Assembly: GCF_001742165.1 (NCBI RefSeq)
Contig: NZ_CP016443.1
Location: 2,790,001 to 2,854,000, forward strand
Direction of reading: 5' to 3'
Origin: Burkholderia stabilis
Lineage (GTDB): Bacteria > Pseudomonadota > Gammaproteobacteria > Burkholderiales > Burkholderiaceae
Length of the DNA: 64,000 bases
Each line of letters starts with the position of its first letter. Within the stretch, counting starts at the first letter, position 1. This document shows positions 2,147 to 24,548 of this stretch, in pieces. The notes under the pieces were generated by a model. That model had not been told where the DNA came from and did no database searches. It saw only the letters and a list, made by a program, of their open reading frames with translations. A program made the position numbers and the translations under genes.

Positions 2147-2245
2147 TCGGATTTCTCCGTGTCGTGATGACACGGAAATCCTAGACACATCCGCGTAAAG
2201 ACGGTGTCAGTTACGCGGGGGCGGGGCATTAAAATTTCGTATCGA

Positions 2246-2464: not shown

Positions 2465-2512
2465 GATTGCTCCTGTTTGAAAGACGAACGACGCGATGTG
2501 CGAGCGGGCATG

Positions 2513-4596: not shown

Positions 4597-4654
4597 GGCG
4601 GGGGAGCGATGAAGGTTCGAAGGCGGTCGCCCGCGCGGGCGGTGCGCCGATGGC

Positions 4655-5438: not shown

Positions 5439-7091
<1,653 letters not shown>

Positions 7092-7382
7092 TTATTGATT
7101 GACGACGGCGACGATGTCTTCCTCGCGCAACACGAGGAACTCGGTGCCGTCCACCTTGACGGCCTGGCCCGCGTACTTGCCGAACAGCACGCGCTCGCCT
7201 ACCTGCAGGTCGGGCACGATGCGCTGGCCGTCCGCGTCCTTGCGGCCGGGGCCGACGGCGATCACTTCGCCCTGGTCGGGTTTTTCCGCGGCGCTGTCGG
7301 GGATCACGATGCCCGACGCGGTGGTGGTTTCCTGGTCGAGTCGTTTGACGATGATGCGGTCGTGCAAGGGGCGTAGGCTCAT
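7092..7382 (-). CDS. groS: Co-chaperonin GroES
   Basis: A 96-residue co-chaperonin that caps the GroEL ring. [18 protein letters not shown] is the standard start, the mobile loop region [18 protein letters not shown] follows, and the protein ends with [11 protein letters not shown] chose the ATG at 7382 over a longer frame to 7421, because that extension would run into the CIRCE element. First gene of the groES-groEL operon. Confidence 0.97.
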
Positions 7383-7415: not shown

Positions 7416-7441
7416 TGGCACTCTTCATCAGAGAGTGCTGA
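7416..7441. promoter_or_regulatory. CIRCE operator (HrcA site) of groES-groEL
   Basis: TGGCACTC, nine bases, then GAGTGCTGA: a close match to the CIRCE inverted repeat (TTAGCACTC-N9-GAGTGCTAA), with arms at 7416-7423 and 7433-7441. It lies 34 bases upstream of groES. HrcA repression at normal temperature is established for this element; hrcA itself is not in the window. Confidence 0.93.
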
Positions 7442-7591
7442 CGAGTATAAAAACGCACGACGGCGCGATCCAATAACGGATTCCGAAAAGCATTTGCGCG
7501 CACACGCTATGGATGCGTGTGCCGGGCGAGGCGGCCAACCTGCCGATTTCGGGAAAGCATTCGTGCCGTCGTGCAAAGCGCATGCAGCCGG

Positions 7592-8875: not shown

Positions 8876-9065
8876 GGTCGGATGAATATCGATGAGGTCG
8901 GATCGGGCGCGCCGGGCAATACCTGGCACGGGCCGACCACGACGCAAGTTTCGAACCAGCCGGATCGTGCGTGCCGGGTACGCGGGCTGGCGGGCGCTTC
9001 GTCCGTGGGGCACACACGTCGCGCGTGTGCCGGTTGCGGCTCGTGCAGCAATCCGGGCAGGCGGG

Positions 9066-9083
9066 CTGTTGCTTGCGCAACAG
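9066..9083. promoter_or_regulatory. Putative sigma-54 activator site (UAS) 1
   Basis: A perfect inverted repeat CTGTTGC-TTGC-GCAACAG centred about 95 bases upstream of the -24 element at 9169. The same 7-4-7 repeat occurs upstream of the other sigma-54 promoters of this island (15164, 15194 and 22054). A weaker GTTGC...GCAA pair lies at about 9032-9050. Probable binding site of the activator encoded at 10056-11171. Confidence 0.75.
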
Positions 9084-9167
9084 ATGCGCGTGCCTGGATC
9101 GCGCCGCGCGATTCGCGAAACGTGTCCGCCCGCCGCGGCGCGGCCATGCGATGCGCGCGGGCGCGGC

Positions 9168-9182
9168 TGGCACGATTGCTGC
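9168..9182 (+). promoter_or_regulatory. Sigma-54 (-24/-12) promoter of aldolase-like gene
   Basis: TGGCACGATTGCTGC: GG at 9169-9170 and GC at 9181-9182 with the required ten bases between them. It matches TGGCACG-N4-TTGC except for one base at the -12 side. The ATG lies about 72 bases further on. Confidence 0.8.
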
Positions 9183-9254
9183 TGATCCGGTCGCCGTGCG
9201 TCGCGCCGTTGCGACGCAGGCCGATCCGTTCACCCGACTCAGGAAACCACACTC

Positions 9255-9935
9255 ATGTCAGTCACCCAAGCCATCGACAGCGGCGAACTCGTGGCATTCG
9301 TCGAGCGCGCGACGCGCGAATTCACGCAGGCCGAACGCGTGCTGAAGGAAACGCGCACGCTCTCCGCGACCAACACGTTCCAGGCGTTCCAGCGCGTGCC
9401 GGGCACGGAGCTCGTCGTCGCATTGTCGGCGCCGAGCCCGTGGGCCGCGTCGCAGGACATCCAGCCCGTCGTCGTGACGCTCGACGGCGACGTGCTGCAC
9501 GGCGATGCGCGTGCGGGCGGGAACGGGCCGCGTTATGCGGGCGTATTCCGCGAGGTGCCGGAAGTCGACGTCGTGATTCACGTGCACGGCCCGTACCTCG
9601 GCGCATGGGCGAGCGCGCATCGTCCGCTGCCGATCCGCTACGCGCCGGCCGCGCGCTACACGCGGGCGCGCGAGATCCCGGTGTACGTCGATCGCCGCCC
9701 CGGTGAGCCGCGCTTCATCGTCGACACGATCCGGCGCGATCCCGAGGTGCCGGCGATCATCGAGGCGAACGGCGGCGCGACGTTCTGGGGCAAGTCGATC
9801 CTCGACGTGTCGAAGTACATCCTGATCCTCGAGGAAGCTGCGTATTTCCAGGCGCTCGCGGAACCGCTCGGCGGCTCGCTCGAATTCGGGCCGGGTGCGC
9901 TCGAACAGCAATGGAAGATGACCGGCCTCGCATGA
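9255..9935 (+). CDS. Class II aldolase/adducin-like protein, atypical metal site
   Basis: A 226-residue protein of the class II aldolase/adducin fold, whose members are zinc-dependent aldolases, epimerases or dehydratases acting on sugar phosphates and related carbonyls. The HxH zinc pair is present in DVVIHVHGPYLGAW. The third zinc ligand, normally in a NHG motif before a VVWG-like strand, appears as EANGGATFWGKS, so that histidine is missing. Activity may be altered or may need another ligand. It has its own sigma-54 promoter and upstream repeat, which places it in the organosulfur regulon; a role in handling the carbon part of the substrate is inference. A stem-loop separates it from the activator gene. 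Confidence 0.75.
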   Translation: MSVTQAIDSGELVAFVERATREFTQAERVLKETRTLSATNTFQAFQRVPGTELVVALSAPSPWAASQDIQPVVVTLDGDVLHGDARAGGNGPRYAGVFREVPEVDVVIHVHGPYLGAWASAHRPLPIRYAPAARYTRAREIPVYVDRRPGEPRFIVDTIRRDPEVPAIIEANGGATFWGKSILDVSKYILILEEAAYFQALAEPLGGSLEFGPGALEQQWKMTGLA

Positions 9936-9943
9936 TGCTGTGC

Positions 9944-9967
9944 GGCGGCCGGCGCAATCCGGCCGCC
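9944..9967 (+). terminator. Stem-loop after aldolase-like gene
   Basis: A perfect 9-bp GC stem (GGCGGCCGG / CCGGCCGCC) with a six-base loop begins 8 bases after the stop codon. There is no T-run, so it may be a weak terminator or an RNA 3' end stabiliser. Confidence 0.5.
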
Positions 9968-10055
9968 GTCATACCGATAGCTCGATGAATTGGTTCGTGG
10001 CCGGCGCGCGTCTTGCTATCGTCGAACCTTCCCCGTTCAACACGCCGGTCGTGCC

Positions 10056-11161
<1,106 letters not shown>

Positions 11162-11171
<10 letters not shown>

Positions 11172-11950
11172 TCGCGCCAGCGCAGCGCGCGCTGCGCGAT
11201 CCGCTCGCATAACGCACTCATGCCGACGGCCAGCGCCGTCACCCCCAGCACGCATACCAGCAGCACGTCGGCGCGCGCGCCGGCCTGCGCGTTCTGCATC
11301 AGGCTGCCGACCCCCGCGCCCGCGTTGAACAGCAGCTCGCTGCTGGTCGCGGTGATCCACGCGAACGGCACCGCTTGCAGCACGCCGGCGAACAGGTCGG
11401 GCAACGCGCCCGGAATCAGCACGTCGCGCCACAGGCCGACGCGCGTCAGGCGATACGACTGCGCCAGCTCGACATAACGCGGATCGACGCGGCGCAGCCC
11501 GTCGAAGCTCGCCGTGGTCATCGGGTAGAACGCGGCGAGCGCGATGATGAGCACTTTCGCGAATTCGCCGGTGCCGGCCCACAGGCTCAGCAGCGGAATC
11601 AGCCCGAGCAGCGGCACGTAGCGCAGCGCCTGGAACGCCGGTTCGCACAGCTTGCGCGCGAGCGGCGAGCGCGCCATCGCCGCGCCGAACACGAGCCCGA
11701 ACGCGACGCCGAACGCGAGCCCGAGCGTCGTGCGGTGCAGGCTCGCGCCGAGATCGGTCGCAAGCTCGCCGCTGCGTGCGAGTTCGACCAGCGCGGCACC
11801 CACCTGCTGCAGCGGCACGAACGCGTATTGATGGGCCGCGTCGCCGGACGACGCAACCTGCCATGCGGCCACCAGCAGGGCCGGCACGACGAGGCCGCGT
11901 GCGCGGCGGCGCAGCGGGGCGAGAGAAAGGGAGCGTGTCAGGGTCGTCAT
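11162..11950 (-). CDS. ABC transporter permease (SsuC/TauC type) 1
   Basis: A 262-residue inner-membrane permease of the sulfonate/nitrate/taurine group. It has about six hydrophobic segments, and the EAA loop contact site is ELAQSYRLTRVGLWRDVLIPGALPDLFAG (key residues S, G, P-G-A-L-P). The family hinge GLAFGVAFGLVFGAAMARS is present. It follows a second, similar permease (11967-12782) with 16 bases between, suggesting a heterodimeric pore. No ATPase gene is found in this operon or elsewhere in the island. Confidence 0.9.
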
Positions 11951-11966
11951 TCGGATGCGTGTGAAA

Positions 11967-12782
11967 TCAGCGCGCCGGCGTCTGCCAGCGCAATGCGTAG
12001 CGCTGCACGAGCGTGATCGTGCGGTCGAGCGCGAAGCCGATCAACCCGATCACCGCGACGTCGACGAGCACCACGTCGAGCCGCAGCATCTGCCGTGCCA
12101 GTTCCATCATCTGCCCGATCCCGCTGTCGGCACTGAGCAGCTCGACCGCGACGAGCGCGAGCCACGCGCGTGCGAGCGCGATCCGGATGCCCGTCAGCAG
12201 CGGGGGCAACGCGGCCGGCAGCAGCACGTCGCGCAGCAGCGCGAAGCGGCCGAGCCCGTAATGGCGCGCCATCTCGACGAGATCGCGCGGCGCGTCGTGC
12301 ACGCCCGTGTACGCGGCCAGCGCAACCGGGAAGAACACGGCCTTGCCGACGACGACGAGCTTCAGCGGTTCGTCTACACCGATCAACAGGATCAGCAACG
12401 GAATCAGCGTGAGCGTCGGCACTTGCCGCAGCAGGTCGAACGTCGGCCGCAGGTAGTCGGAGAACAGCCGGCTGCGCGCGAGCAGGATGCCGAACGCGGC
12501 GCCGCTCGTCGCGCCGATCGCGAAACCGAGCGCCAGGCGATGCAGCGTGATCAGCAGGTTGTCGCGCAGCTCGCCGGTGTCGATCAGCGCGCGCAGTGTC
12601 GTGGCGAGACGGCCGGGCGGCACGACGAGCTGCGGCGGGAACCAGCGTTGCGCGCTCGCGAGCCACCACAGCGCGGCGAACGCGACGGGCGTGACCCACC
12701 ACAATGCGTGCTCGCCGAGCCGTGCGAGGGCGGGCCCGCGTATCGCGCGCGGGCCGTTCGATGGCAGGGCGCGCGTCGACAT
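11967..12782 (-). CDS. ABC transporter permease (SsuC/TauC type) 2
   Basis: A 271-residue inner-membrane permease of the same family as its downstream neighbour. The family motif LHRLALGFAIGATSGAAFGILLARS is visible as LHRLALGFAIG and GILLARS, and the EAA loop is EMARHYGLGRFALLRDVLLPAALPPLLTG. The C-terminal end GIGQMMELARQMLRLDVVLVDVAVIGLIGF is the conserved last helix pair. Its start ATG (12782) shares one base with the stop of the binding-protein gene (TGATG), indicating translational coupling. With its partner and the binding protein it forms an importer lacking only the ATPase. Confidence 0.9.
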   Translation of the reverse strand: MSTRALPSNGPRAIRGPALARLGEHALWWVTPVAFAALWWLASAQRWFPPQLVVPPGRLATTLRALIDTGELRDNLLITLHRLALGFAIGATSGAAFGILLARSRLFSDYLRPTFDLLRQVPTLTLIPLLILLIGVDEPLKLVVVGKAVFFPVALAAYTGVHDAPRDLVEMARHYGLGRFALLRDVLLPAALPPLLTGIRIALARAWLALVAVELLSADSGIGQMMELARQMLRLDVVLVDVAVIGLIGFALDRTITLVQRYALRWQTPAR

Positions 12783-13888
12783 CAACGGCTCGCGACGCGC
12801 GACGCGTCGGCGCGCCAGTAGCCGTCGAGGCCGAGCTGCTTCAACGCGGTCGCGACGAACGTCGGCGCGAGCAGCGCATTCACGTCGACCGGCGTGGATG
12901 TCAGGCCGGCCTGGCGGCTGTACGCGACGACGTCGCGATAGTGGCCGGTCAGCGCGGGCGTGAAGAGCGGCGTCCATTGCTCCTTCCACGGCGTCGATTC
13001 GTCCGCGTATTCGCGGCGCACGACGCTTTCCGGCTGGCCGGACGCGCTCAGGATCTTCACGTACGCGTCGCGGTTCTGCGGCTGCGAGATCCAGTGCGCG
13101 GCGCGCACGTAGGCCGTCGCGACGAGCTGCGTGATGTCCGGGTAGCGCCGCACGAAATCGTCGGACGCCCACAGTTCCGCGCGCATCTTCCAGTCGTCGG
13201 GCGCGGTCTTGGTCGACCAGATGATCTTGCCGACGTGCTTGTCGACCAGCGAATACGCGTCGGACAGCGTGAAGAAACCGTCGACGCGGCCTGCCGCGAC
13301 GGCTGCCGCGCCGGCTTGCGGATCGAGGTTGTAGATCCTGAAGTCGGACAGCTTCAGCCCGTTTTCGGCGAGCAGCTTGCTGAACGTGACTTCCCACGGC
13401 CGGCCGCGATTGAGCGCGATGCGCTTGCCCTTGAGATCGACGATCGACTTCTCGGTCGAGCCGGCCGGCACGACGAGATAGGTGTTGCTGCCGACGCCGC
13501 CCGGCACGATCAGGCGCGTGCGTGTGCCCGACGCGTTGACGACGACCGACGGCAGATCGCCGTAGCCCGCGAAATCGATGCTGCCGTTCGTGAACGCCTC
13601 GTTGACGAGCGTGCCGACCGCCGCGGTCGATACGGGCACCCATTGCAGCTTCACGTGTTTCGCGGCGAGCGCCTTCTCGAGCGACTTGTCGGCGTCGATC
13701 AGCGCGGAGGCGCCCGCGTATTGCGTTTTGCCGCCGCCTGAATACGCGACGACGGCGATCCGCACGACCTTGGGCGCGTCGTCTGCGTGGGCGGCCGGTG
13801 CGGCGAACGATGCCGCGGCAAGCGGCAGCGCGGCGAGCAGCGCGCGCAGCGGGCGGCGCAGCGAAGCGAAGGAGCGTGTGTGTTTCAT
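12782..13888 (-). CDS. Periplasmic sulfonate-type ABC binding protein (SsuA-like)
   Basis: A 368-residue exported binding protein. The signal peptide (LRALLAALPLAAASFAAPAAHA, cut before DDAPKVV) ends near residue 36. The mature part has the SsuA/TauA pattern: ALAAKHVKLQWVPVSTAAVGTLVNEAFTNGSIDFAGYGDLP, visible as QWVPV, EAFTNGSIDFAGYG, and then SIVDLKGKRIALNRG and VDGFFTLSDAYS. It should capture an organosulfur anion in the periplasm for the two permeases. I chose ATG 13888 because the signal peptide begins there. It is second in the leftward operon, after DszB-like 1. Confidence 0.88.
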   Translation of the reverse strand: MKHTRSFASLRRPLRALLAALPLAAASFAAPAAHADDAPKVVRIAVVAYSGGGKTQYAGASALIDADKSLEKALAAKHVKLQWVPVSTAAVGTLVNEAFTNGSIDFAGYGDLPSVVVNASGTRTRLIVPGGVGSNTYLVVPAGSTEKSIVDLKGKRIALNRGRPWEVTFSKLLAENGLKLSDFRIYNLDPQAGAAAVAAGRVDGFFTLSDAYSLVDKHVGKIIWSTKTAPDDWKMRAELWASDDFVRRYPDITQLVATAYVRAAHWISQPQNRDAYVKILSASGQPESVVRREYADESTPWKEQWTPLFTPALTGHYRDVVAYSRQAGLTSTPVDVNALLAPTFVATALKQLGLDGYWRADASRVASR

Positions 13889-13919
13889 GATGATCCGGAC
13901 AGGTTGGGCGAAGAGGTGT

Positions 13920-14996
13920 TCACGCGCGCTTCTGCAGCGACGGCCGCAGCACGTCGGCGAGCGGGCGCGGGTCGATCCAGTCGGCGACGTCGAAGTCGGC
14001 TTCGAGGAAGCCCCAGTCGTGCAGGAACGTCTTGAAGTCGTCGAGCGCGGCGACCGATTCGTCATCGAGGTTCACGCCGAGATGCCGGTGCAGCTGGTTG
14101 CCGTACGCGGCGCGGACCCAGTCGATCGACGACGCGGTTTCGCCGGCCATGTAGTGCGCGGTTTCGTCGGGATGCGTGCTCGCCCAGTCGCCGGCGGCGA
14201 CCACGAGCTTCAGGAAGCCCGCGACGATGTCCGGATGATTCGCGAGTACGTCGGCGTTGACCGTCAGCGGGCGCGGCGTGCCGTTGTTGTTGCGGATCGA
14301 GCGCTCCGGATGGAAGCCGATGTCGATCACGACATGCGCGCCGATCAGCTGCGCGATCTCGAGGCCCGTCGAGCCTTTCACGTAGATCGCGTCGACTTCG
14401 CCGCGCAGCAGCGCGCCGGCTTCGGCCGCGTACAGCGCGCGGCTCGAAAAACCGTGCGGCGACGCGAACAGGTTCGCCGCGCGCGCGGGCCCGACGGCCT
14501 GCAGCGTGCGCGCGCGCACGTCGACGAGCTCGACGTCGCGGGTGGTCAGCCCGTCGAGGCTCAGCGCGTTGACGAAGCCGCGCAGCGCCGACGCGCGAAA
14601 GATGTCGATGCGATCGTCGGGGCGGCTCGGGATCGCGATCCGGCGGCCGCGCAGCGCCTTCACGGAGCGGATGCCCGAATCGGGTCGCGCGAGGATCAAC
14701 TGCGATTCGTCGACCCACGACAGCCCGATCACGCGCGTGTTCGCGGCGTTCGAGCGCGCCCACATCGCGGGGATGCTGCCGCCCTGGCGAAACGACTGCG
14801 CGAGCGTGTGATCGCTGATCGACGACACGTCGTGCCGGGTGGCGCCGCGCGGCGAGCGGATCGCGACGCCGTCGGCCGACGTCTCGCCGTTGAGCCAGCC
14901 GAGATGCACGGCGATGCCGAGCGGCGTCGGCACGGGCGATCGGGCGTACCAGAACGTCTGCTGCTTGTCCGATGACGAATCGGGCCTGTCTGTCAT
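13920..14996 (-). CDS. DszB-like desulfinase paralogue 1 (Cys to Ser at active site)
   Basis: A 358-residue cytoplasmic protein (no signal peptide) with the binding-protein fold used by 2'-hydroxybiphenyl-2-sulfinate desulfinase (DszB). DszB uses Cys27, His60 and Arg70. The corresponding segments are ARSPVPTPLG, where serine (residue 20) replaces the cysteine of NCPVPNALL, and SFRQGGSIPA, where Arg70 is kept. The residue ten before that arginine is Ile, not His. A shared DH pair sits seven residues before the arginine in all three paralogues. It may therefore bind rather than cleave its ligand. First gene of the leftward operon, driven by the sigma-54 promoter at 15074-15089. Confidence 0.72.
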   Translation of the reverse strand: MTDRPDSSSDKQQTFWYARSPVPTPLGIAVHLGWLNGETSADGVAIRSPRGATRHDVSSISDHTLAQSFRQGGSIPAMWARSNAANTRVIGLSWVDESQLILARPDSGIRSVKALRGRRIAIPSRPDDRIDIFRASALRGFVNALSLDGLTTRDVELVDVRARTLQAVGPARAANLFASPHGFSSRALYAAEAGALLRGEVDAIYVKGSTGLEIAQLIGAHVVIDIGFHPERSIRNNNGTPRPLTVNADVLANHPDIVAGFLKLVVAAGDWASTHPDETAHYMAGETASSIDWVRAAYGNQLHRHLGVNLDDESVAALDDFKTFLHDWGFLEADFDVADWIDPRPLADVLRPSLQKRA

Positions 14997-15073
14997 GGGT
15001 GAGATGTCCTCTCTGGGTAAGCATGGTCGATGCGCGGTCGCGCACGGTGTCGCACGCGCGGGCAGCTCGACGT

Positions 15074-15089
15074 TGCAAGTTCCGGGCCA
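15074..15089 (-). promoter_or_regulatory. Sigma-54 promoter of leftward operon
   Basis: Read leftward: TGGCCCG-GAAC-TTGCA, an almost exact match to TGGCACG-N4-TTGCA, with GG at 15087-15088 and GC at 15075-15076, ten bases apart. It lies about 78 bases upstream of the DszB-like 1 ATG and 75-90 bases downstream (leftward) of the UAS at 15164-15181. Confidence 0.85.
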
Positions 15090-15163
15090 GTGAGCGGAAG
15101 CGGCGCTGTCGCAGGCGGCGCGGGCATCGCCTCCGATGCGCGGCGCGATCGCCGGCGCCTGGC

Positions 15164-15181
15164 CTGTTGCGTCAGCAACAG
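15164..15181. promoter_or_regulatory. Putative sigma-54 activator site (UAS) 2
   Basis: A perfect CTGTTGC-GTCA-GCAACAG repeat, the same as the one at 9066 apart from the four-base spacer. It lies between two divergent sigma-54 promoters and could serve both. Confidence 0.78.
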
Positions 15182-15193
15182 TCGCATCGGCCG

Positions 15194-15231
15194 CTGTTGC
15201 GCCTGCAGCACCGGTGCGGCAGGCGCAACAG
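15194..15231. promoter_or_regulatory. 38-bp near-perfect palindrome containing two further UAS copies
   Basis: Outer arms of 13 bp (15194-15206 and 15219-15231) are perfect inverted repeats beginning CTGTTGC and ending GCAACAG. The centre 15208-15217 (GCACCGGTGC) is itself palindromic. Only the pair 15207/15218 fails to match. Within it are two degenerate 7-4-7 UAS units, at 15194-15211 and 15214-15231. Likely a cooperative activator site. Confidence 0.7.
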
Positions 15232-15359
15232 CACGGTGCGAGCCTGTGCCGATGCCGCCGGCAAGCATCGGCGCGCATCGTTCGATTGCCGAGAACGCCC
15301 GATGCGCAAGGCGTCGCGCGTGCCGATCGGCGGGCCGCCAGCATCGCGGCGATGCGTGT

Positions 15360-15375
15360 TGGCACACCGCGTGCT
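15360..15375 (+). promoter_or_regulatory. Sigma-54 promoter of rightward monooxygenase operon
   Basis: TGGCACA-CCGC-GTGCT: GG at 15361-15362, GC at 15373-15374, ten bases apart. The predicted start of transcription is about 60 bases before the ATG at 15445. The UAS copies lie 130-195 bases upstream. Confidence 0.8.
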
Positions 15376-15444
15376 TTAAGCCCGGCATACGCGCGGCACG
15401 CCGGTGCCGCACGCAATCCGAACGGGCCGACAAGGAGAACCCCG

Positions 15445-16617
15445 ATGGCTGTTGAATTTCTGTGGCGCCTGCCGATGCACGGCGACGGCCGCCGCGCGCA
15501 CGACCTGCATACGCGTGGCGAATGGAATCGCCAGCGCGCATCGCGCGTCGCGCCGAAAGTCGACGACGACGATTTCGGCTACATCGACTATCTGTCGCAG
15601 GTCGCACGCGCGGCCGACATCGCCGGCTTCCACGGCGCGCTGATTCCGATTTTCCGCTTCACCGAGGAACCGTGGGTCGTCGCGGCGGCGCTCGCGCGCG
15701 AGACGCGCCGGCTGCGGCTCCTGATCGCGCTGCAGCCGCATTTCGTGCATCCGGTCTATGCGGCGCAGATGGCCGCGAGCCTGCAGCGGGTCAGCCGCGG
15801 CCGCGTCGAGTGGAACGTCGTCACGGGCGGCGGCGGGCCCGACCAGCGCGCGTACGGCGACTTCATCGATCACGACAGTCGTTATGCGCGCACCGACGAA
15901 TTCCTCGATGTCGTGAAGGGCGTGGCGGCCGGTGAGCCGTTCACGTTCGACGGCCGCTTCTACCGCGTCGAAGCCGGCGGCCTGCTGCCGCCGTTGAGCG
16001 GCCAGAAGCCGCCGCGCATTTATCTGGCCGGCGCGAGCGACGCCGCGCTCGCGGTCGCGGCGAAGCATGGCGACGTGCACCTGAGCTGGGGCGAGCCGCT
16101 CGCGAAACAGAAGGAAGTGATCGACGCCGCACGCCGTGCACTCGACCGCCAGAACGCCGAACGCGACCTGCGTTTCGGCATGCGCATCGACATCCTGGCG
16201 CGCGAGACGGAGGAGCAGGCGTGGGCCGAGTTGCGGCAGATGTTCGCGACGGTGGGCGCATCGACGCGCAACGGTTTCGGCGGGCGCGGCGAATCGTCGG
16301 AATCGGTCGGCGCGAAACGCCAGTTCGCGCTGCACCAGGGCAACACGCAGCACTTCGACGACCTGATCGTCGGCCCGAACCTGTGGGCCGGGATGTCGCA
16401 GATTCGCGGCGGCCCGGGTTGCGTGATCGTCGGCAGCCACGAGCAGGTGGCCGAGCGGCTCGCGGAATACGTCGATATCGGCGTATCGACGTTCATCCTC
16501 GCGAGCAATCCGCATCTCGAGGAAGCGTACCGCGTGGGCGAGGAAGTGCTGCCGCTCGTCGACGGCGCGCTGAACGCGCGCGGCACGCAGGCGGCGCTGC
16601 GCGTGGCCGGCGCGTGA
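15445..16617 (+). CDS. FMNH2-dependent alkanesulfonate monooxygenase-like (SsuD/MsuD family)
   Basis: A 390-residue luciferase-like flavin monooxygenase. SsuD oxidises sulfonates with FMNH2 and oxygen to release sulfite. Matches to SsuD include VEFLWRLPMHGDG at the N-terminus, VEWNVVTGGG, and GPNLWAGMSQIRGGPGCVIVG near residue 310. The C-terminal PHLEEAYRVGEEVLPL is almost identical to the family form. The start ATG has AAGGAG seven bases upstream. No flavin reductase gene is nearby, so FMNH2 must come from elsewhere. It heads the rightward operon, 43 bases before DszB-like 2, suggesting oxidation followed by desulfination. Confidence 0.9.
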   Translation: MAVEFLWRLPMHGDGRRAHDLHTRGEWNRQRASRVAPKVDDDDFGYIDYLSQVARAADIAGFHGALIPIFRFTEEPWVVAAALARETRRLRLLIALQPHFVHPVYAAQMAASLQRVSRGRVEWNVVTGGGGPDQRAYGDFIDHDSRYARTDEFLDVVKGVAAGEPFTFDGRFYRVEAGGLLPPLSGQKPPRIYLAGASDAALAVAAKHGDVHLSWGEPLAKQKEVIDAARRALDRQNAERDLRFGMRIDILARETEEQAWAELRQMFATVGASTRNGFGGRGESSESVGAKRQFALHQGNTQHFDDLIVGPNLWAGMSQIRGGPGCVIVGSHEQVAERLAEYVDIGVSTFILASNPHLEEAYRVGEEVLPLVDGALNARGTQAALRVAGA

Positions 16618-16660
16618 GCGCGACGGCATTCCCCGCATTCCAACGACAAGGACACACACC

Positions 16661-17707: not shown

Positions 17708-17740
17708 CGCGTTGCCGCGCGTCATTGCAAGGAGTCGAAC

Positions 17741-18529
17741 ATGACAGGGCTGACCATCGAATACGGCGCGCCGCATGCGCGCCGGCATGCGGTGCGCGCC
17801 GCGCCGCGCCCGGCCGCCGCCGCGGTGGCGCGACCGCCGTCGGCGGCGCCGGTCGAGCGGCCGGATACGCGTGCCGCGAAGCCGAACGCATGGCGCGGCG
17901 CGGGCGCGGTTGCGCTGGCCGTCGCGGCGCTGCATGCGGGCATCGCGCTGCTGGCCGCACGCGCGCCCGCCGCGCCGCCCGTACAACCGCCGAGGCCGCT
18001 GCCGATGACGGTCGAGTTGACGCGGCCGCCCGAGCCGCTGCCGCAGGCCGCGCATCCGCCGCCGGCCGTGCCGCCGAAACCGCTGAAGCAGGCGCCGACG
18101 CCGCCGAAGCCGCGCGCGAGCGTCGCGCATGCTGCGCCTGCGCCGCTGGTGGCGCGTGAGGCGGCGCCTGCGGCCACGGCGCCGGCCGCAGCCGCGCCAG
18201 CCGTGCCGACGCCGGCTCCCGCCCCCGCACCCGCCGCACCCGTGCGCGAAACCGCGCCGATCGGCGACGCGGCCTACCTGCGCAACCCGGCGCCCGACTA
18301 TCCGGCGTTCGCGCAGGACCAGGGCTGGGAAGGGCGCGTCGTGCTGCGCGTGCACGTGCTCGCGAATGGCACGCCCGATTCCGTCGACGTGCGCACGAGC
18401 AGCGGCCGCCGCATGCTCGACAACGCGGCGGTGGCCGCGGTGAAGCGCTGGACGTTCGTGCCCGCGAAGCGCGGCGACGAAGCGGTCGACGGCTGGGTCA
18501 ACGTGCCGATCGATTTCAAGCTGGGCTGA
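17741..18529 (+). CDS. tonB: TonB energy transducer
   Basis: A 262-residue TonB that couples the inner-membrane proton gradient to outer-membrane receptors. The N-terminal cytoplasmic stretch is unusually long (about 50 residues). One membrane helix (GAVALAVAALHAGIALLAA) follows, then a Pro/Ala-rich periplasmic spacer of about 100 residues. The C-terminal TonB domain runs from YLRNPAPDYP through GWEGRVVLRVHV and ends WVNVPIDFKL. AAGGAG precedes the start. Placed directly before exbB-exbD and in the same operon as desulfurisation genes, it is probably dedicated to the receptor at 22233. Confidence 0.93.
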   Translation: MTGLTIEYGAPHARRHAVRAAPRPAAAAVARPPSAAPVERPDTRAAKPNAWRGAGAVALAVAALHAGIALLAARAPAAPPVQPPRPLPMTVELTRPPEPLPQAAHPPPAVPPKPLKQAPTPPKPRASVAHAAPAPLVAREAAPAATAPAAAAPAVPTPAPAPAPAAPVRETAPIGDAAYLRNPAPDYPAFAQDQGWEGRVVLRVHVLANGTPDSVDVRTSSGRRMLDNAAVAAVKRWTFVPAKRGDEAVDGWVNVPIDFKLG

Positions 18530-18568
18530 CCCGCCGGGCAGCCTCACTTTTTTCAAGGAACTCAACTC

Positions 18569-19285
18569 ATGAACGGTATCCCGACCACCTTCATCGTCCA
18601 GGGCGCGCTCTGGCTGCTCATCGTCTTTTCCGTCGTCACGTGGACGCTGATCGTCGTGAAGGCGATCCAGAGCCTGCGGGCGAGCGCGCGCAACCGGCGT
18701 TACACGCGCGCGTTCTGGGCCGCGAACAGCTTCCACGAGGCCGCCGCGCTCGACGGCGCGAACAGCCCCGTCGGCGAACTCGCCGCGACCGGCTTCGACG
18801 CGCTGCGGCGCGCCGACGAGAGCAGCGCGCACGATCTCGAACACAGCTGGAGCCGCCACGATCTGCTCGAACGCCATCTGCGCCAGCAGATCCACAACGC
18901 GCGCCGGCGCGAGGAAGCGGGGCTCGCGGTGCTCGCGTCGATCGGCAGCACCGCGCCGTTCGTCGGCCTGTTCGGCACCGTGTTCGGCATCATCCACGCG
19001 CTGACCGCGATCGCGCACAGCGCGTCGGCGAGCATCGACGTCGTCGCCGGGCCGATCGGCGAGGCGCTCGTCGCGACCGGGATCGGCATCGCGGTCGCCG
19101 TGCCGGCCGTGCTCGCGTACAACTTCTTCGTGCGGCGCGTGAAGGCTGCTTCGGCCGATCTCGATGCGTTCGCAACCGATTTCGTCACGCTCGCACAGAA
19201 GGCCGGCTTCCGCGTGCCGGCCGCCGTGCCCGCACCCGCGCCGGCACACCGTTCCGGCGAAACCCGTCAGGAGGCGTTCGCATAA
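18569..19285 (+). CDS. exbB: ExbB proton-channel subunit
   Basis: A 238-residue MotA/TolQ/ExbB-family inner-membrane protein with three membrane segments: residues about 10-32, and two near 125-150 and 165-190. The conserved SIGSTAPFVGLFGTVFGII and PIGEALVATGIGIAVAVPAVLAYN regions line the proton path. The stop codon shares a base with the exbD start (TAATG), indicating coupled translation. It works with ExbD and TonB. Confidence 0.95.
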   Translation: MNGIPTTFIVQGALWLLIVFSVVTWTLIVVKAIQSLRASARNRRYTRAFWAANSFHEAAALDGANSPVGELAATGFDALRRADESSAHDLEHSWSRHDLLERHLRQQIHNARRREEAGLAVLASIGSTAPFVGLFGTVFGIIHALTAIAHSASASIDVVAGPIGEALVATGIGIAVAVPAVLAYNFFVRRVKAASADLDAFATDFVTLAQKAGFRVPAAVPAPAPAHRSGETRQEAFA

Positions 19286-19695
19286 TGGCTTTCTCGTCCT
19301 CTTCCGACAACGACGACGTGCTCAGCGAAATCAACATCACGCCGCTCGTCGACGTGATGCTGGTGCTGCTCGTCGCCTTCATCGTCACGGCGCCGCTGCT
19401 CAACAACGCGGTGCACGTGAATCTCCCGAACACCGTCGCCACGGCGCCGGCCGACCGCAAGCCGAACGTCACCGTGAGCGTCGACGCGAAGGGCGTCGTG
19501 TATCTCGACAAGCGCGCGGTCGCGCTCGACACCGTGCCGGCCGAGCTGGCCGCGCTGAAGGCCGGCCGGCCCGACGTCGCGCTCGACCTGCAGGCCGACG
19601 AGCACGTGCCGTACGGCACCGTCGCGAAGCTGATGGCCGCGATCGAGCACGCGGGCATCACGCGGCTGTCGGTGCTCACCGCGCCGCGCGGCTGA
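19285..19695 (+). CDS. exbD: ExbD proton-channel subunit
   Basis: A 136-residue ExbD/TolR-family protein: a short cytoplasmic N-terminus, one membrane helix (LVDVMLVLLVAFIVTAPLL) with the essential aspartate at about residue 23, and a periplasmic domain ending ITRLSVLTAP. ATG 19285 overlaps the exbB stop. Standard length. Confidence 0.95.
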   Translation: MAFSSSSDNDDVLSEINITPLVDVMLVLLVAFIVTAPLLNNAVHVNLPNTVATAPADRKPNVTVSVDAKGVVYLDKRAVALDTVPAELAALKAGRPDVALDLQADEHVPYGTVAKLMAAIEHAGITRLSVLTAPRG

Positions 19696-19729
19696 CGCGC
19701 CTTTCTCGACTCCTTTCCCGAACGCATCC

Positions 19730-20806
19730 ATGAGCAACACGGCTTCATACAACGTCCGCTCGATCTGGTACACGCGCTGCCCGGTGCCGACGCCGCTCGG
19801 CATCGCCGCGCACCTCGGCTGGCTCGACAGCGAATTCGCCGGCGACGGCATCACCGTGCGCGCGCTGCAGGAAAGCCAGCACGCAGCGCTGCATCACGCG
19901 CTCGTCGATCATTCGCTCGACAACGCGTTCCGGCAGGGCGGCAGCATTCCCGCGCTGTGGGCGCGCGCGGCCGGCGCCGACACGCGCGTGGTCGCGCTCA
20001 CGTGGGTCGACGAGGCGCAGGCGATCGTCGCGCTGCCGGAAACCGGCCTGACGCGGCCGAAGGACTTGCGCGGGCGCCGCATCGGCTTGCCCCGCCGCGA
20101 CGGCGAACGCATCGACATCTTCCGCGCGGCGGCGCTGCGCGGCTTCGTCAGCGCGCTGTCGCTCGACGGGCTCGGCCCCGGCGACGTCGAATGGGTCGAC
20201 GTGAGCGCGTCGAACCTGCGCGCGCCCGTGTCGACGCCGCTCACGCGCGACGCGGCGTTCAGCCATCCGGCGAGCCTGACGAGCCGCCGGCTCTATGCGG
20301 CCGAGGCGGCCGCGCTGGTGCGCGGCGACGTCGACGCGATCTACGTGAAAGGCTCGCTCGGGCTGGAAACCGCGCACCTGATCGGCGCGCAGCCGGTCGT
20401 CGACATCGGCTTTCATCCCGATCCGCAGATCCGCATCAACAATGGTTCGCCGCGCCCGCTGACCGTCAACGCGTCGACGCTCGAGCGCCATCCCGACATC
20501 GTCAGCCGTTTTCTCGCGCGCGTGACCGATGTCGAAGGCTGGGCGCGCGAGCACGAAGACGAAGTGCTCGGTTATCTCTGCCGCGAGACGGGTTCCGGCC
20601 ACGACTGGCTGCGGCTCGCGTACGGCGCCGACGTCCACCGGCGGCTGCGCACCGATCTCGACGAAGCGTCGATCGCCGCGCTCGACGATTTCAAGCGCTT
20701 CCTGGTCGACTGGCAGTTCCTGCCTGCCGATTTCGACGTGCGCGCGTGGATTGACCGACGCGCGCTCGACGGCATCGCGACGCTGTCTCGCGACGCCGCG
20801 CGGTGA
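19730..20806 (+). CDS. DszB-like desulfinase paralogue 3
   Basis: A 358-residue cytoplasmic protein of the DszB/binding-protein fold, closest in layout to paralogue 1 (shared SRRLYAAEAAALVRGDVDAIYVKGS segment, here as SRRLYAAEA and DVDAIYVKGS). The active-site cysteine is kept (RCPVPTPLG, residue 17), as is the arginine in AFRQGGSIPAL. The residue ten before the arginine is Leu rather than His, with a DH pair seven before it and a HH pair further upstream. It probably differs in substrate or mechanism from paralogue 2. It follows exbD by 34 bases and its stop overlaps the MFS start by four bases (GTGA). Confidence 0.75.
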   Translation: MSNTASYNVRSIWYTRCPVPTPLGIAAHLGWLDSEFAGDGITVRALQESQHAALHHALVDHSLDNAFRQGGSIPALWARAAGADTRVVALTWVDEAQAIVALPETGLTRPKDLRGRRIGLPRRDGERIDIFRAAALRGFVSALSLDGLGPGDVEWVDVSASNLRAPVSTPLTRDAAFSHPASLTSRRLYAAEAAALVRGDVDAIYVKGSLGLETAHLIGAQPVVDIGFHPDPQIRINNGSPRPLTVNASTLERHPDIVSRFLARVTDVEGWAREHEDEVLGYLCRETGSGHDWLRLAYGADVHRRLRTDLDEASIAALDDFKRFLVDWQFLPADFDVRAWIDRRALDGIATLSRDAAR

Positions 20807-22020
20807 GCGCGCCGGCACGCGTCGCCAACGCATGGCGGCGCGAGCGTTTCACCGGCGGCTTCATGCTGCTGGCGCTCGCGAGCGGCACGACGATCAGCAT
20901 GGCGCAGCTCGCGACGACGCTCTACGCGCTGGCGCTCGGCGTGGACAGCGCGCGGCTCGGCATCATCGCCGCGATGGAGCCGCTCGGCATCGCGCTGATG
21001 ACGCTGCCGGCCGGGCTGCTCGTCGCGCGCTACGGCGCGCGGCGCGTGTACTTCGCCGCGAGCATGGGGCCGATGCTGCTCAATCTCGTCGTGCCGTTTA
21101 CCGGCGCATGGCCGCTGATCGCGCTCACGCAAGGGCTGATCGGGCTGTGCATCCCGTTCCGGATCGTGTCGATCAACGGCGTGTTCCTCGCGCGTCTCGC
21201 GCAGATCGGCCTCGCGCGCGCGGGCTGGTATCGCGCGGCGATGTCGGTCGGCACCGGCATGGTCGGGCCGTGGCTCGCGAGCTGGCTGATCGGCGCGCAT
21301 GGCGCGGGCGCGACGTTCTGCGCGGCATCGGCGAGCTTCGCGGGCATGGCGCTGTTCAGCCGGGTGCTGCTCGGCGATGCGGAGCAATTGCCGCGCGGCG
21401 CGCAGCAGGCAACCGGCGGGCTGCGCGCGTTGCTGGCGCTCGCGTGGACGCACGACGTGCGCGAGCAGCTCGTGCTGGAGGCCGTGAACAGCGCGACACG
21501 CTCGCTTGCCGCGACGTATACGGTGGTGCTCGCGATCCAGTCGCTCGGGCTGTCGCAGACGCGGGCCGTCGCGCTGCTCACATTGCAGGGCGCCGTCGCC
21601 GTGATCGCACTGTTCGGGCTCGGGCACGTCGCGCAGCGAATGACGGAGCGCCGTTGTCATGCACTCAGCTTCGCGGGCGCCATCGCCGGGCTGCTCGCGC
21701 TCGGTCTTGCGCGCGACGCATGGATCGTCGGCGCGGGGCTCGCCGCGCTGTGCACCGGGTCGTCGCTGCTGCATCTCGTCAACATGCAGCGCCTCGGCCG
21801 CCACCCGGCCGACAAGAGCCAGGTGTCGAGCCTTTACAACCTGGCATCGATGACCGGCGCATTCTGCGGCCCGCTGGCCGGCAGCGCACTCGCGCCGGTG
21901 GTCGGGTTGCCGGCCGTGTTTCTGTGCTGGCTGCCGGTCGTCGCACTGGCGGCGCTCGCATTGCAGCGTTCGCGTATGCGTCGCATCGCGCTGCAAACGC
22001 TGCCCGCGAAGCTGTCCTGA
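20803..22020 (+). CDS. MFS transporter in organosulfur operon
   Basis: A 405-residue major facilitator superfamily protein with about twelve hydrophobic segments. LLVARYGARRVYF corresponds to the loop 2-3 signature, and the charged motif is weak. It starts with GTG, overlapping the DszB-like 3 stop by four bases, so it is translationally coupled. It may export the desulfurised carbon product or sulfite, or import substrate; sequence does not decide. Last gene of the rightward operon. Confidence 0.85.
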   Translation: MSAPARVANAWRRERFTGGFMLLALASGTTISMAQLATTLYALALGVDSARLGIIAAMEPLGIALMTLPAGLLVARYGARRVYFAASMGPMLLNLVVPFTGAWPLIALTQGLIGLCIPFRIVSINGVFLARLAQIGLARAGWYRAAMSVGTGMVGPWLASWLIGAHGAGATFCAASASFAGMALFSRVLLGDAEQLPRGAQQATGGLRALLALAWTHDVREQLVLEAVNSATRSLAATYTVVLAIQSLGLSQTRAVALLTLQGAVAVIALFGLGHVAQRMTERRCHALSFAGAIAGLLALGLARDAWIVGAGLAALCTGSSLLHLVNMQRLGRHPADKSQVSSLYNLASMTGAFCGPLAGSALAPVVGLPAVFLCWLPVVALAALALQRSRMRRIALQTLPAKLS

Positions 22021-22053
22021 TCGCTTTCGACGTGTGCGTCGCGCGATGCAGCG

Positions 22054-22071
22054 GTGTTGCGTGACAAACAG
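22054..22071. promoter_or_regulatory. Putative sigma-54 activator site (UAS) 3, imperfect
   Basis: GTGTTGC-GTGA-CAAACAG: six of seven and five of seven bases match the arms of the repeat at 9066 and 15164, with the same four-base spacer. It lies about 84 bases upstream of the -24 element at 22156. Confidence 0.55.
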
Positions 22072-22154
22072 TTCGCACCACATCACAGATGCGCAGGCAG
22101 CAACACGTGCGCGGCACACTCGCCGGAAGCCCCGTACGACGGGCTTTTCGATGC

Positions 22155-22170
22155 TGGCATCCGAATTGCA
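22155..22170 (+). promoter_or_regulatory. Sigma-54 promoter of TonB-dependent receptor
   Basis: TGGCATC-CGAA-TTGCA: GG at 22156-22157 and GC at 22168-22169 with ten bases between. It is about 63 bases upstream of the receptor ATG. Confidence 0.78.
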
Positions 22171-22232
22171 TTACAGAACCCGTGCGTCGCGCACGCACGT
22201 GCGTTCAACCGATCAAACAGGATGACTCATCG

Positions 22233-24548
22233 ATGTTCAGGAAAAAACTCATCGTTACCGCACTGGGGGGACTGCTGACGGGCGGCACCGTATCGCTGCC
22301 GGCATGGGCAGAGGACGGCGCGGCGACAGCGGAGGCGCCGGACGCGAAACCGGCGCAACAGGCGCCGGACGATGCGGCCGCGGCGAAGCCGAAAGCGGCC
22401 CGCTCGACTCGCGGCGCGGCCACGCGCGAAACGAATCTCGGCACCGTGACCGTGACCGCGCGCCGGCGCAAGGAAAGCATCCAGGACGTGCCGGTCGCGG
22501 TGAGCGCGCTGAGCGGCGATACGATCCGGAACAACGAGTTGCGTGTGGTCAACGACGTGACGAAGTACGTGCCGAACTTCACCGGGCAATCGACCGAGGG
22601 GCGCGAGCGGCCGCGCTGGTTCATGCGCGGGGTCGGCAGCAACGATCCGTCGGACCTGTCGCTGAGCCCGATCGGCGTGTACTTCGACGACGTGTACATC
22701 AACAGCGTGTTCGGGCAGGGTTTCCCGCTGTTCGACCTCGACCGCATCGAAGTGCTGCGCGGGCCGCAGGGCACGCTGTGGGGCAAGAATACCGTCGGCG
22801 GCGCGCTCAGCATCACGTCGCAGAAGCCGACCTTCGACGTGAGCGGCTACGGCAAGATCGGGCTGGGGCAGTACAACAGTCGGCTCGCGGAAGCCGCGAT
22901 CGGCGGGCCGATCGGCAAGAACGACGTACTGGCCGCGCGCGTGTCGGTGTATCACGAGAACGCCGACAGCTTCTACACGAACACCGTGCAGCAAGGGCGC
23001 TTCGGCGGCTTCCACGACAACGCGGTGCGCTTCCAGGTGCTGGCCGTGCCGACGTCGGACACCGACTTCCTGTTCAACATCCACGGCCGCAACTACACGG
23101 GCGGCGGCAATGCGTGGCATGCGCAGGGCGCGGGGCCGGGCGGCGCGAACCAGTTCGGTTTCGTCGGGGCGACCGATCCGTACACGGTGTCGCTCAATGC
23201 GCCGTCGAGCGATCACATCTCGACGTGGGGCACGTCGCTGACCGCGCACTGGCGCATCAACCCGGCCGTGTCGCTGACGTCGATCACCGCATTCGAAGGG
23301 CTGCATCGCTGGTATCAGGACGACGAGGACTATTCGCCGTTCGATGCCGCGCGCACGCACGACCGCCTGTCGAGCCGCCAGTTCTCGCAGGAATTCCGGC
23401 TCGAATCGCCGCAGAACGACCGGCTGAGCTGGATCCTCGGTACGCATCTGTTCACCGAGCAACTGGCCGAGCAAGGCGCGGGCGGCGGCCTGCCGGGTTC
23501 GCCGTCGCCCGCGTTCTACCACCTGACCGACCTCACGCAGCACACGCAGAGCGCGGCGATCTTCGGCAGCGTGAAGTACCGCTTCACCGACCGCTTCAAC
23601 GTGACCGGCGGGCTGCGTTACACGATCGAGCGCAAGACCATCAACCTGACCGGGCTGCAGGACACGGGCAATGTGACGTTCAGCGATCCGAACAGCTGGT
23701 GGGCGCCGTCGTCGGTCTCGTCGCCGCTCGCGGTCAGCGCGCAGCAGAACCAGTCGAACACGTGGCGCGCGCCGACCTGGGATCTCACGCCCGAATATGC
23801 GCTCAGCAACAACGTGCGTGCGTATTTCCGCTATGCGCGCGGGTTCCGCTCGGGCGGCTACAACGGCAACGCGTATACGCAGAGCACGGTGTCGACCGTC
23901 ACGCCGGAGTACCTGACCGATTACGAAGTCGGGATCAAGAGCGAATGGTTCGACAAGCGGCTGATCGTCAACGCGAGCGTGTTCCACTACGACTATCGCG
24001 ACATCCAGGTGTTCGCGCTCGCGCCGAACCCGTTCGGCGGGCCGCCGGTGTCGACGCTGTCGAACGCGGGGCAGGGGCGCGCGGACGGCTTCGAGCTGGA
24101 GCTGAAGGCGCAGCCGGTCAACAGCCTCTACCTGTTCGCGAACCTCGGGATGCTGAACACGCGCTACACGGAGTTCCGCAATGTGCCGACCGCCGTCGGC
24201 AACTCGTTCGCGCGTTCGCCGCACACGACGCTGAACGCGGGCTTCTACTATCGCGTGCCGGTGTCGTTCGGCACGCTGACGGCGGGCGGCGACGTGAACT
24301 ACCGCAGCCGTGAATACTTCAGCGCGACGCGGCAGACGATGCCGCAGCTGTGGCAGGGCGGTTATACGGTGCTGAACGCGCACGTGTCGTACACGACGCC
24401 GAACCAGAAGTACATCGTGACGGGCTACGTGACGAACCTGACGAACAAGGTTTACAAGAAGCTCGAACTGCTGCCGTCGTATGGCGCGTACCCGGTGCTG
24501 TACGGCGATCCGCGCACGGTCGGGATCACGCTGACCGCGAAGATCTGA
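22233..24548 (+). CDS. TonB-dependent outer-membrane receptor
   Basis: A 771-residue receptor. The signal peptide (KKLIVTALGGLLTGGTVSLPAWA) is followed by an Ala/Pro/Lys-rich linker and a TonB-box-like LGTVTVTARR. The plug domain is clear (SIQDVPVAVSALSG, VEVLRGPQGTLWGKN as IEVLRGPQGTLWGKNT, GGALSI). The beta-barrel ends in the expected VGITLTAKI with a terminal hydrophobic pattern. The subtype resembles FyuA/CirA-like receptors common in organosulfur and aromatic uptake clusters. It has its own sigma-54 promoter and lies directly after the operon encoding TonB-ExbBD, so it probably imports the organosulfur substrate of this island. Confidence 0.93.
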   Translation: MFRKKLIVTALGGLLTGGTVSLPAWAEDGAATAEAPDAKPAQQAPDDAAAAKPKAARSTRGAATRETNLGTVTVTARRRKESIQDVPVAVSALSGDTIRNNELRVVNDVTKYVPNFTGQSTEGRERPRWFMRGVGSNDPSDLSLSPIGVYFDDVYINSVFGQGFPLFDLDRIEVLRGPQGTLWGKNTVGGALSITSQKPTFDVSGYGKIGLGQYNSRLAEAAIGGPIGKNDVLAARVSVYHENADSFYTNTVQQGRFGGFHDNAVRFQVLAVPTSDTDFLFNIHGRNYTGGGNAWHAQGAGPGGANQFGFVGATDPYTVSLNAPSSDHISTWGTSLTAHWRINPAVSLTSITAFEGLHRWYQDDEDYSPFDAARTHDRLSSRQFSQEFRLESPQNDRLSWILGTHLFTEQLAEQGAGGGLPGSPSPAFYHLTDLTQHTQSAAIFGSVKYRFTDRFNVTGGLRYTIERKTINLTGLQDTGNVTFSDPNSWWAPSSVSSPLAVSAQQNQSNTWRAPTWDLTPEYALSNNVRAYFRYARGFRSGGYNGNAYTQSTVSTVTPEYLTDYEVGIKSEWFDKRLIVNASVFHYDYRDIQVFALAPNPFGGPPVSTLSNAGQGRADGFELELKAQPVNSLYLFANLGMLNTRYTEFRNVPTAVGNSFARSPHTTLNAGFYYRVPVSFGTLTAGGDVNYRSREYFSATRQTMPQLWQGGYTVLNAHVSYTTPNQKYIVTGYVTNLTNKVYKKLELLPSYGAYPVLYGDPRTVGITLTAKI

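Follow-up and report, generated by a model that had tools for sequence, protein, structure and literature searches.

A conserved, sulfur-poor gene island with sigma-54-type promoters in Burkholderia stabilis: a candidate organosulfur-scavenging system beside a sulfur-free GroES-GroEL pair

Several described systems for acquiring sulfur resemble, each in part, a gene island of Burkholderia stabilis that we analyse here. The island and its neighbours lie in the left half of a 64,000-nucleotide stretch (contig NZ_CP016443.1, C2:2790001-2854000; hereafter the window, with positions counted from its first letter) of an 8.5 Mb, three-contig genome. An earlier note on this DNA, made from the letters alone, had read the island as a complete, sigma-54-controlled route for scavenging organosulfur compounds with a TonB system of its own. 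We find an assembly of known parts that is real and conserved and that lacks two parts of a complete route. Both the conserved gene order and the sulfur-poor composition support the proposed function, and we consider it likely that the island is a sulfur-starvation gene cluster serving sigma-54-controlled organosulfur scavenging by the route set out below.

The sfn-msu regulon of Pseudomonas (PMC8234197), through which sulfones and methanesulfonate are used, shares with the island a GAFTGA-type activator without a sensor domain (SfnR), sigma-54 promoters and an SsuD-family monooxygenase; the island differs from it in having its own palindrome, in the addition of DszB-like proteins, a TonB system and an outer-membrane receptor, and in holding no MsuC-, SfnG- or reductase-type gene. 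With the Dsz (4S) pathway of Rhodococcus the island has in common DszB-like homologs and a flavin-dependent monooxygenase of the DszA superfamily. This relation is distant only (phmmer E 8e-13 and 9.7e-19 to PDB 2de2 for DszB-like proteins 1 and 2, and 3.7e-11 to PDB 2de3 for DszB-like protein 3), the island carries three DszB paralogs, one of them a Ser-type form, together with an outer-membrane uptake system, and no DszC-type (acyl-CoA dehydrogenase-like) family was found among its genes in Pfam and NCBIfam, so that the DszA-DszB-DszC set of the 4S pathway is not complete here. The chromosomal SsuA-SsuB-DszB/SsuA-SsuD cluster of strain IGTS8 and three Gordonia loci (L053-L055 among our comparison loci) likewise place a DszB-like gene by an SsuD-like one, and the Gordonia loci also hold ATP-binding cassette (ABC) genes and a relative of the island's aldolase-like gene, but searches of them gave no match to a receptor or to TonB; to our knowledge, sigma-54 control is not expected in the Rhodococcus and Gordonia clusters. 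Finally, SsuA-, SsuC- and SsuD-type proteins are shared with the SsuEADCB and TauABCD systems, but the island encodes two permeases and neither SsuB nor SsuE, and is thus no SsuEADCB-type operon in which these two accompany SsuA, SsuC and SsuD.

Gene content, order and control regions

Searches against Pfam, NCBIfam and PDB sequences recovered all 14 gene types named by the earlier note within a single block (9255-24548). A class II aldolase-like protein (9255-9935, + strand; PF00596, above cut-off) is followed by a sigma-54 activator (10056-11171, +; PF00158). The next four genes form an operon on the opposite strand, which begins with dszB3 for DszB-like protein 3 (13920-14996, -) and continues with an SsuA-family periplasmic binding protein with a signal-like N-terminus (12782-13888, -; NMT1-type Pfam matches, TIGR01728 below cut-off) and with SsuC-type permeases 1 (11967-12782, -) and 2 (11162-11950, -), both matching PF00528 and, below cut-off, NF008470. 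Divergent from it runs ssuD for an SsuD/MsuD-like FMNH2-dependent monooxygenase (15445-16617, +; PF00296), with dszB1 (16661-17707, +), TonB (17741-18529, +; PF03544), ExbB (18569-19285, +; PF01618), ExbD (19285-19695, +; PF02472), dszB2 (19730-20806, +) and a major facilitator superfamily (MFS) transporter (20803-22020, +; PF07690) behind it, and the block closes with a TonB-dependent receptor of 771 residues (22233-24548, +; PF00593 and PF07715). TonB C-terminal, ExbB, ExbD, plug and barrel domains are thereby present as a complete set by Pfam. The island extends beyond this list: a secretory-lipase-family hydrolase with a signal-like N-terminus (7592-8875, -; PF03583) belongs to it as well, its gene being present in 17/17 Burkholderia and Paraburkholderia island loci that reach its place and not found in 17 stretches that lack the island (L162-L178).

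The same gene order, suggested earlier as a check in other Burkholderia, was found in all loci of that genus of sufficient length, and order, promoters and palindromes are conserved across Burkholderia and Paraburkholderia. Among 65 genomes of the genus, 20 hold dszB1 at 93% identity or more and 23 any DszB-like relative at E<=1e-40; the nearest relatives belong to the Burkholderia cepacia complex (dszB1 at 99% in B. cenocepacia NCTC13227 and 98% in B. arboris and B. seminalis). Three islands that are intact in other respects (L022, L028, L029) lack the segment TonB-ExbB-ExbD-dszB2-MFS, the Paraburkholderia islands L024, L025 and L027 lack the MFS gene, and the rearranged versions in Massilia (L030) and two Sphingomonas (L031-L032) have no TonB-ExbBD. 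The TonB system is thus an optional part of the island, and a private one as its defining part is not supported.

Sigma-54 sites were scored with the pattern TGGCAC-N5-TTGC against a background of 298 genes called in 20 stretches of 20 kb from the same genome by a codon model trained on island genes and blind to Met and Cys codons. The four promoters of one kind described earlier are borne out by their sequence: sites with one mismatch precede the aldolase-like gene (9168-9182, +), the dszB3-sbp-perm1-perm2 operon (15075-15089, -), ssuD (15360-15374, +) and the receptor gene (22155-22169, +), and a site at no more than one mismatch within 150 bp stands at 4/4 of these gene starts versus 1/297 background genes (one of the 298 lacked enough upstream DNA). 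Across the window the pattern is not enriched (58 matches at two mismatches or fewer, 69.9 expected), and the signal is therefore one of position. A fifth and weaker site precedes the lipase gene (8944-8958, -; TGGTTC-N5-TTGC, two mismatches), its TGGTTC and CTTGC blocks identical in 16/16 aligned sequences (the window and 15 loci) amid DNA that has drifted among them. In the Burkholderia and Paraburkholderia loci L012-L029, one mismatch or fewer was found for the aldolase site in 15/17 (two mismatches in the other two), for the ssuD site in 12/18 (two in the other six), for the dszB3 site in 11/18 (L029 without a match by this pattern, L028 with one in a different register) and for the receptor site in 12/13, L022 having none.

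A second element, the palindrome TGTTGC-N4-GCAACA, is the likely binding site of the activator. Exact copies number three in the 8.5 Mb genome, two of them in the island, and the reversed control has none. One exact and conserved copy lies before the aldolase-like gene (9067-9082); a group of three fills the region between the divergent operons (15165-15230), with an exact copy at 15165, one with one mismatch at 15195 and one with two at 15215; and a degenerate copy precedes the receptor gene (22055-22070). At two mismatches or fewer the window holds nine, versus one to four in ten first-order Markov resamplings. The exact palindrome recurs in the divergent dszB3/ssuD region of 18/18 loci (L012-L029) with a variable 4-base centre, and in the aldolase region 12/17 loci keep it at one mismatch or fewer and the other five at two.

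The activator combines PF00158 and a GAFTGA motif with no recognised sensor-domain family, which is the domain composition of SfnR-type activators; these are induced through CysB under sulfate starvation. Its nearest relative among eight compared (of 26 genome matches) is 59% identical and stands in an msu/sfn-type locus (L070). We infer that the island's own activator binds the palindrome. The activator of Massilia shares 64% identity with that of the island. With up to three mismatches allowed, the nearest sites there resemble TGGTGC-N4-GCACCA, suggestive of a site and an activator that may have changed together. No Rfam family matched at gathering scores.

Sulfur content of the island proteins

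The island proteins are poor in sulfur. With start residues excluded and the lipase not counted, its 14 proteins hold 55 Cys+Met in 4750 residues (1.16%), against 2.94% for the pooled background of 298 genes, in which the lowest of 57 blocks of 14 genes reaches 2.48%; the lipase has 1.17-1.27%, depending on the start chosen. The receptor has no Cys and three Met after its start; the mean for its orthologs is 0.18% over 16 loci, and the copies of Massilia and the two Sphingomonas stand at 0.0. Paralogs of the same genome were compared under a half-length filter, which excluded 10/26 receptors and 1/10 ExbB loci, with the start Met counted where it fell inside the segment. The island receptor is the lowest among the 16 of 26 loci so compared; ExbB, which has zero Cys/Met after its start residue, is at 0.42% the lowest of nine rows, the others having 1.8-3.0% (two rows being the same place); the activator is second lowest of 8 of 26 loci and ExbD second lowest of 10.

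Two further loci of sulfur type in the genome provide a positive control. In L070 (C3:356000-368000; a monooxygenase, an FMN reductase, an acyl-CoA-dehydrogenase-like gene and an activator) and L071 (C2:104000-123900; sulfur-type by its TauD- and SsuA-type genes), 7/27 called proteins lack Cys and Met altogether beyond the start residue; the seven, 186-367 residues long, include TauD-, SsuA- and monooxygenase-type proteins, and two of them are encoded in L070. The background has one such protein in 298 (158 residues). In a study of R. qingshengii IGTS8 (PMC8557817), low Cys/Met content is counted among the ways of sparing sulfur when sulfate is withheld, and proteins of the IGTS8 cluster are listed as changed without sulfate; its SsuA, SsuB, DszB/SsuA-like and SsuD proteins (peg4799-4806, one cluster) are tabled there before the proteins lowered in dibenzothiophene culture, and from this position in the table we read them as raised. 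The sulfur-poor composition thus supports a role in sulfur supply independently of annotation.

A sulfur-free GroES-GroEL pair and other neighbours

On its left the island adjoins a chaperonin pair, a neighbour and not a member, that was no part of the earlier finding and is the stronger novelty of the two. GroEL2 (5439-7079, -; 546 residues) scores 832 bits with TIGR02348, above the GroEL equivalog cut-off of 582.1, and is by sequence a predicted chaperone; GroES2 (7092-7382, -; 96 residues) scores 157.9 bits with NF001527 (cut-off 120). Neither has any Cys or Met after the start. The housekeeping GroEL1 of the same genome is 85% identical to GroEL2, but all 19 of its Cys and Met, including those of the C-terminal GGM tail, are replaced in GroEL2. 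A search of the literature, with most subscription journals outside its reach, found a sulfur-free GroEL, or the island, in no title or opening of an abstract.

This composition is held across genomes. GroEL2 occurs at 91% identity or more in 55/65 genomes of the genus and is sulfur-free in all 41 of them that were read (47/47 stretches, six of them repeats of genomes already counted). Among 299 genomes sampled from the family, 24 matches from six genera outside Burkholderia were listed at 88-93%, chosen by likeness to the GroEL2 of the window; 22 are sulfur-free and two have one Met, giving 63/65 genomes overall, and every GroES2 read beside these proteins is sulfur-free too. GroEL1 carries 18-19 Cys+Met in 17/17 proteins, and four other GroEL copies 8-13. 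A FastTree phylogeny places the 64 distinct sequences of GroEL2 in one group (node support after rerooting low, 0.08) with a single variable Cys/Met column, Met in two sequences, over 1.67 substitutions per site, versus four such columns over 0.30 substitutions per site in GroEL1. A third type of GroEL, 72-77% identical and with 8-11 Met and no Cys, was seen in L179 and L180.

Upstream of groES2 lies a CIRCE-like inverted repeat, GCACTC-N9-GAGTGC (7418-7438, -), which is presumably an HrcA-type operator and is exact in 16/20 aligned upstream regions. The same promoter region (7418-7479) holds the element CCGTTATTGGA, present in 20/20 upstream regions; 487 kb of other DNA of this genome, sulfur-type loci included, gave one match only, with one mismatch, and the element therefore provides no evidence for a sulfur regulon.

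The purge is most simply understood as having produced a sulfur-free folding machine for the sulfur starvation that the island would answer. The alternative that GroEL2 and GroES2 evolved against oxidation of Met and Cys, and not to save sulfur, draws on the fact that a protein without these residues is immune to inactivation by their oxidation, and the CIRCE-like repeat suggests a general stress role. We nevertheless regard it as doubtful, since other sulfur-type loci, with enzymes that are no stress proteins, show this purge as well, and since 29/41 GroEL2 places have sulfur-acquisition or encapsulin-2A genes within the 14 kb around them versus 0/20 control stretches. These 29 divide into 18/24 places outside the genus and 11/17 island-less places within it (Fisher test 1.6e-7 for the outside-genus set and 3.8e-8 for both sets, with controls from one genome and related genomes that are not independent), and 9 of them rest on SsuC-like permeases alone. 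Sulfur saving and oxidation resistance could also have acted on GroEL2 together.

Sulfur-type genes also flank the pair and the island in this genome. At the left edge of the window is the 3' end of a gene for the cysteine desulfurase cargo of a family-2A encapsulin (1-625, +; NF041166 954.5 bits on L182, cut-off 800), whose shell scores 524.7 bits with NF041162 (cut-off 380), the two together identifying a family-2A system. Their operon (C2:2785902-2790625; L182 7903-12626) encodes a rhodanese, a hexapeptide-repeat (acetyltransferase-like) protein, the shell and the cargo, and is sulfur-poor; five called genes (683-5269), one of them of LysE type, separate it from groES2-groEL2. Shell and cargo are of the same type as in the SrpI encapsulin of Synechococcus, here accompanied by the hexapeptide-repeat and rhodanese genes, and in S. 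elongatus the removal of sulfate strongly raises both SrpI and its cargo (PMC8049743). The island is followed on its right by a sulfatase gene (28370-30307, +; PF00884) and an FGE-sulfatase-type gene (30408-31457, +; PF03781). In two island-less stretches (L168, L169) groES2 directly adjoins those EamA and MFS genes which in the window come after the island, and the sulfatase gene lies within the same island-less stretch in L162, L164-L167, L169 and L171, so that the island looks like an optional insertion at this place.

A further alternative is that groES2-groEL2 stands beside the island by chance only. GroEL2 is found in far more genomes of the genus than dszB1 (55 and 20 of the 65), and in five islands (L024, L025, L027-L029) no groES2 appears within the short sequence available past the lipase; we hold mere chance to be unlikely, because the other neighbourhoods of GroEL2 contain sulfur-type genes as well, and its place, if not the island, looks functional. 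Overall, we lean towards a model in which Burkholderiaceae keep a second, complete, selection-held and sulfur-free chaperonin within a sulfur-poor "starvation proteome" (scavenging island, desulfurase encapsulin and sulfatases), to which folding would be handed over at sulfur shortage.

Desulfination enzymes, importer and the proposed route

In DszB, Cys27, His60 and Arg70 have catalytic roles. DszB-like protein 1 keeps the positions of these residues and of Gly73 in the window and in 21/21 ortholog loci. DszB-like protein 2 keeps them in 14/14 other orthologs listed, a comparison made without the rows of L012, L014, L015 and L036; the copy of the window, unlike these, has Leu at the His60 equivalent, with Cys and Arg kept. 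DszB-like protein 3 has Ser for the catalytic Cys of a desulfinase in the window and 20/20 orthologs listed, and Ile at the His60 position in all of them except Massilia; the solved chain nearest to it, 2de3, is itself a DszB entry with Ser at this position. In sequence relation and catalytic positions, proteins 1 and 2 would fit DszB desulfinases, the His-to-Leu exchange of the latter excepted, and the Ser-type paralog may not be a desulfinase. The count of three DszB-like proteins given earlier stands. Four Pseudomonas loci (L050, L051, L052, L057) also have a Ser-type copy together with a Cys-type one.

An alternative that we judge improbable takes these proteins for cytoplasmic ligand-binding proteins of the SsuA fold. 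Proteins 1 and 3 do match TIGR01728 weakly, below cut-off, the place of protein 2 also appears in a genome search with that model, and the Cys is lacking throughout the listed orthologs of protein 3; the complete retention of the four DszB positions in protein 1 and the fact that DszB is the nearest solved structure argue for desulfinases instead.

The monooxygenase stands closest to MsuD and SsuD; its best match among PDB sequences is MsuD (PDB 7jv3, E 4.9e-79), with DszA at 8.1e-12, and it falls below the SsuD equivalog cut-off (TIGR03565, 313.5 bits against 518.2). Class II aldolases bind zinc through three His, two in an HxH motif and one in a His-Gly further on. The aldolase-like protein keeps HxH, and 13/13 aligned sequences, a chosen subset in which Gordonia and Pseudomonas are represented, read ANGG or SNGG in place of the third His; the protein thus does not have all three zinc-binding His of the class, despite its Pfam score. 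Relatives of this gene occur near DszB-like and SsuD-like genes in Proteobacteria and Gordonia (L030, L043, L044, L048-L050, L053, L054, L057).

Under sulfate scarcity, the approximately five promoters would be switched on by sigma-54 RNA polymerase together with the activator at its palindromes. The secreted hydrolase and the receptor, powered by TonB-ExbB-ExbD where present, would bring an organosulfur compound into the periplasm, from which the SsuA-type protein and the two SsuC-type permeases would carry it inward with an ATPase encoded elsewhere. The SsuD/MsuD-like monooxygenase would then cut C-S bonds with FMNH2 from a reductase likewise encoded elsewhere, and the Cys-type DszB-like proteins would free sulfite from sulfinates, the Ser-type paralog probably serving in substrate binding or a changed chemistry; the MFS protein, where present, may export the desulfurised residue. 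The substrate would be a sulfone, sulfinate or sulfonate of alkyl or aryl type, which may be ester-linked. A sulfolipid, suggested by the pairing of a secreted lipase with a sulfonate enzyme, is a guess only, no glycosidase family having been found among the island genes.

Several observations weigh against the scavenging route as just described. ABC-ATPase queries from Massilia and Sphingomonas found no match in the window by tblastn, on which the absence of an ATPase there rests, so that the importer is incomplete as encoded; nor did the Massilia flavin-reductase and Sphingomonas nitroreductase queries, and no island gene matches an FMN reductase family (no dedicated SsuE-type query was run). 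The MFS protein (4.7%) and permease 2 (2.68%) are not sulfur-poor, the SsuD-like protein (1.79%, start counted) is not below its four genome paralogs (0.0-1.56%), and a low sulfur content is general among the TonB-dependent receptors of Burkholderia (0.5-2.4% in 16 of 26 loci). The palindrome before the receptor gene is degenerate, and the Sphingomonas versions have no activator in 21 kb and no sigma-54 sites at one mismatch or fewer. The third exact palindrome of the genome (C1:2739924, within L066 3916-3940, C1:2739915-2739939) overlaps a one-mismatch sigma-54-like sequence, so that the activator may have a target outside the island. Finally, the groES2 promoter carries the CIRCE-like repeat and no sigma-54 site, suggesting that the chaperonin is not under the island's control. 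The weakened side points (the third palindrome, SsuD content and the permease-only neighbourhoods) leave our estimate of sulfur scavenging unchanged.

As for the missing parts, which make "complete" too strong a word for the route, the island encodes neither ATPase nor flavin reductase, and the Massilia version has both close by: Pfam places an ABC ATPase beside permease 2 there and in Sphingomonas, and in Massilia a flavin reductase stands by the aldolase-like gene. A regular expression for Walker and signature motifs was discarded, as it missed these ATPases. The best relative of the Massilia ATPase in the B. stabilis genome (56%, C2:113946) belongs to a cluster made up of a binding protein, two permeases in succession and the ATPase, together with two genes of TauD type. 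Elsewhere, locus L072 (C3:728000-742000) holds ExbB, two ExbD, a TonB-dependent receptor, an SsuA-type binding protein, two permeases and an ATPase.

Least probable is that the island serves carbon catabolism or detoxification of a single organic compound in which sulfur is incidental, with sulfur supply not its purpose and its expression following that compound and not sulfate. Although the aldolase-like gene, the MFS gene and the secreted hydrolase would suit this and sensorless activators can be controlled in other ways, such a reading leaves the sulfur-poor composition, conserved across genera, unexplained, the island's neighbours are sulfur-type genes, and the nearest of the compared activators stands in an msu/sfn-type locus with two proteins free of Cys and Met.

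Read as a sulfur-scavenging system, the island is a conserved unit, open to testing, in which sigma-54 control is combined with uptake through the outer membrane and with desulfination, and the palindrome defines a candidate regulon. Judging from the loci sampled, proteins with zero Cys/Met may serve as a marker of sulfur-type loci. The GroES-GroEL pair amounts to a natural experiment: a machine of essential type shares its cell with a twin that is 85% identical and contains sulfur, and one Met column has been regained over about 1.7 substitutions per site of the GroEL2 tree. The pair makes the old question of how nutrient limitation shapes protein composition testable in a single protein.

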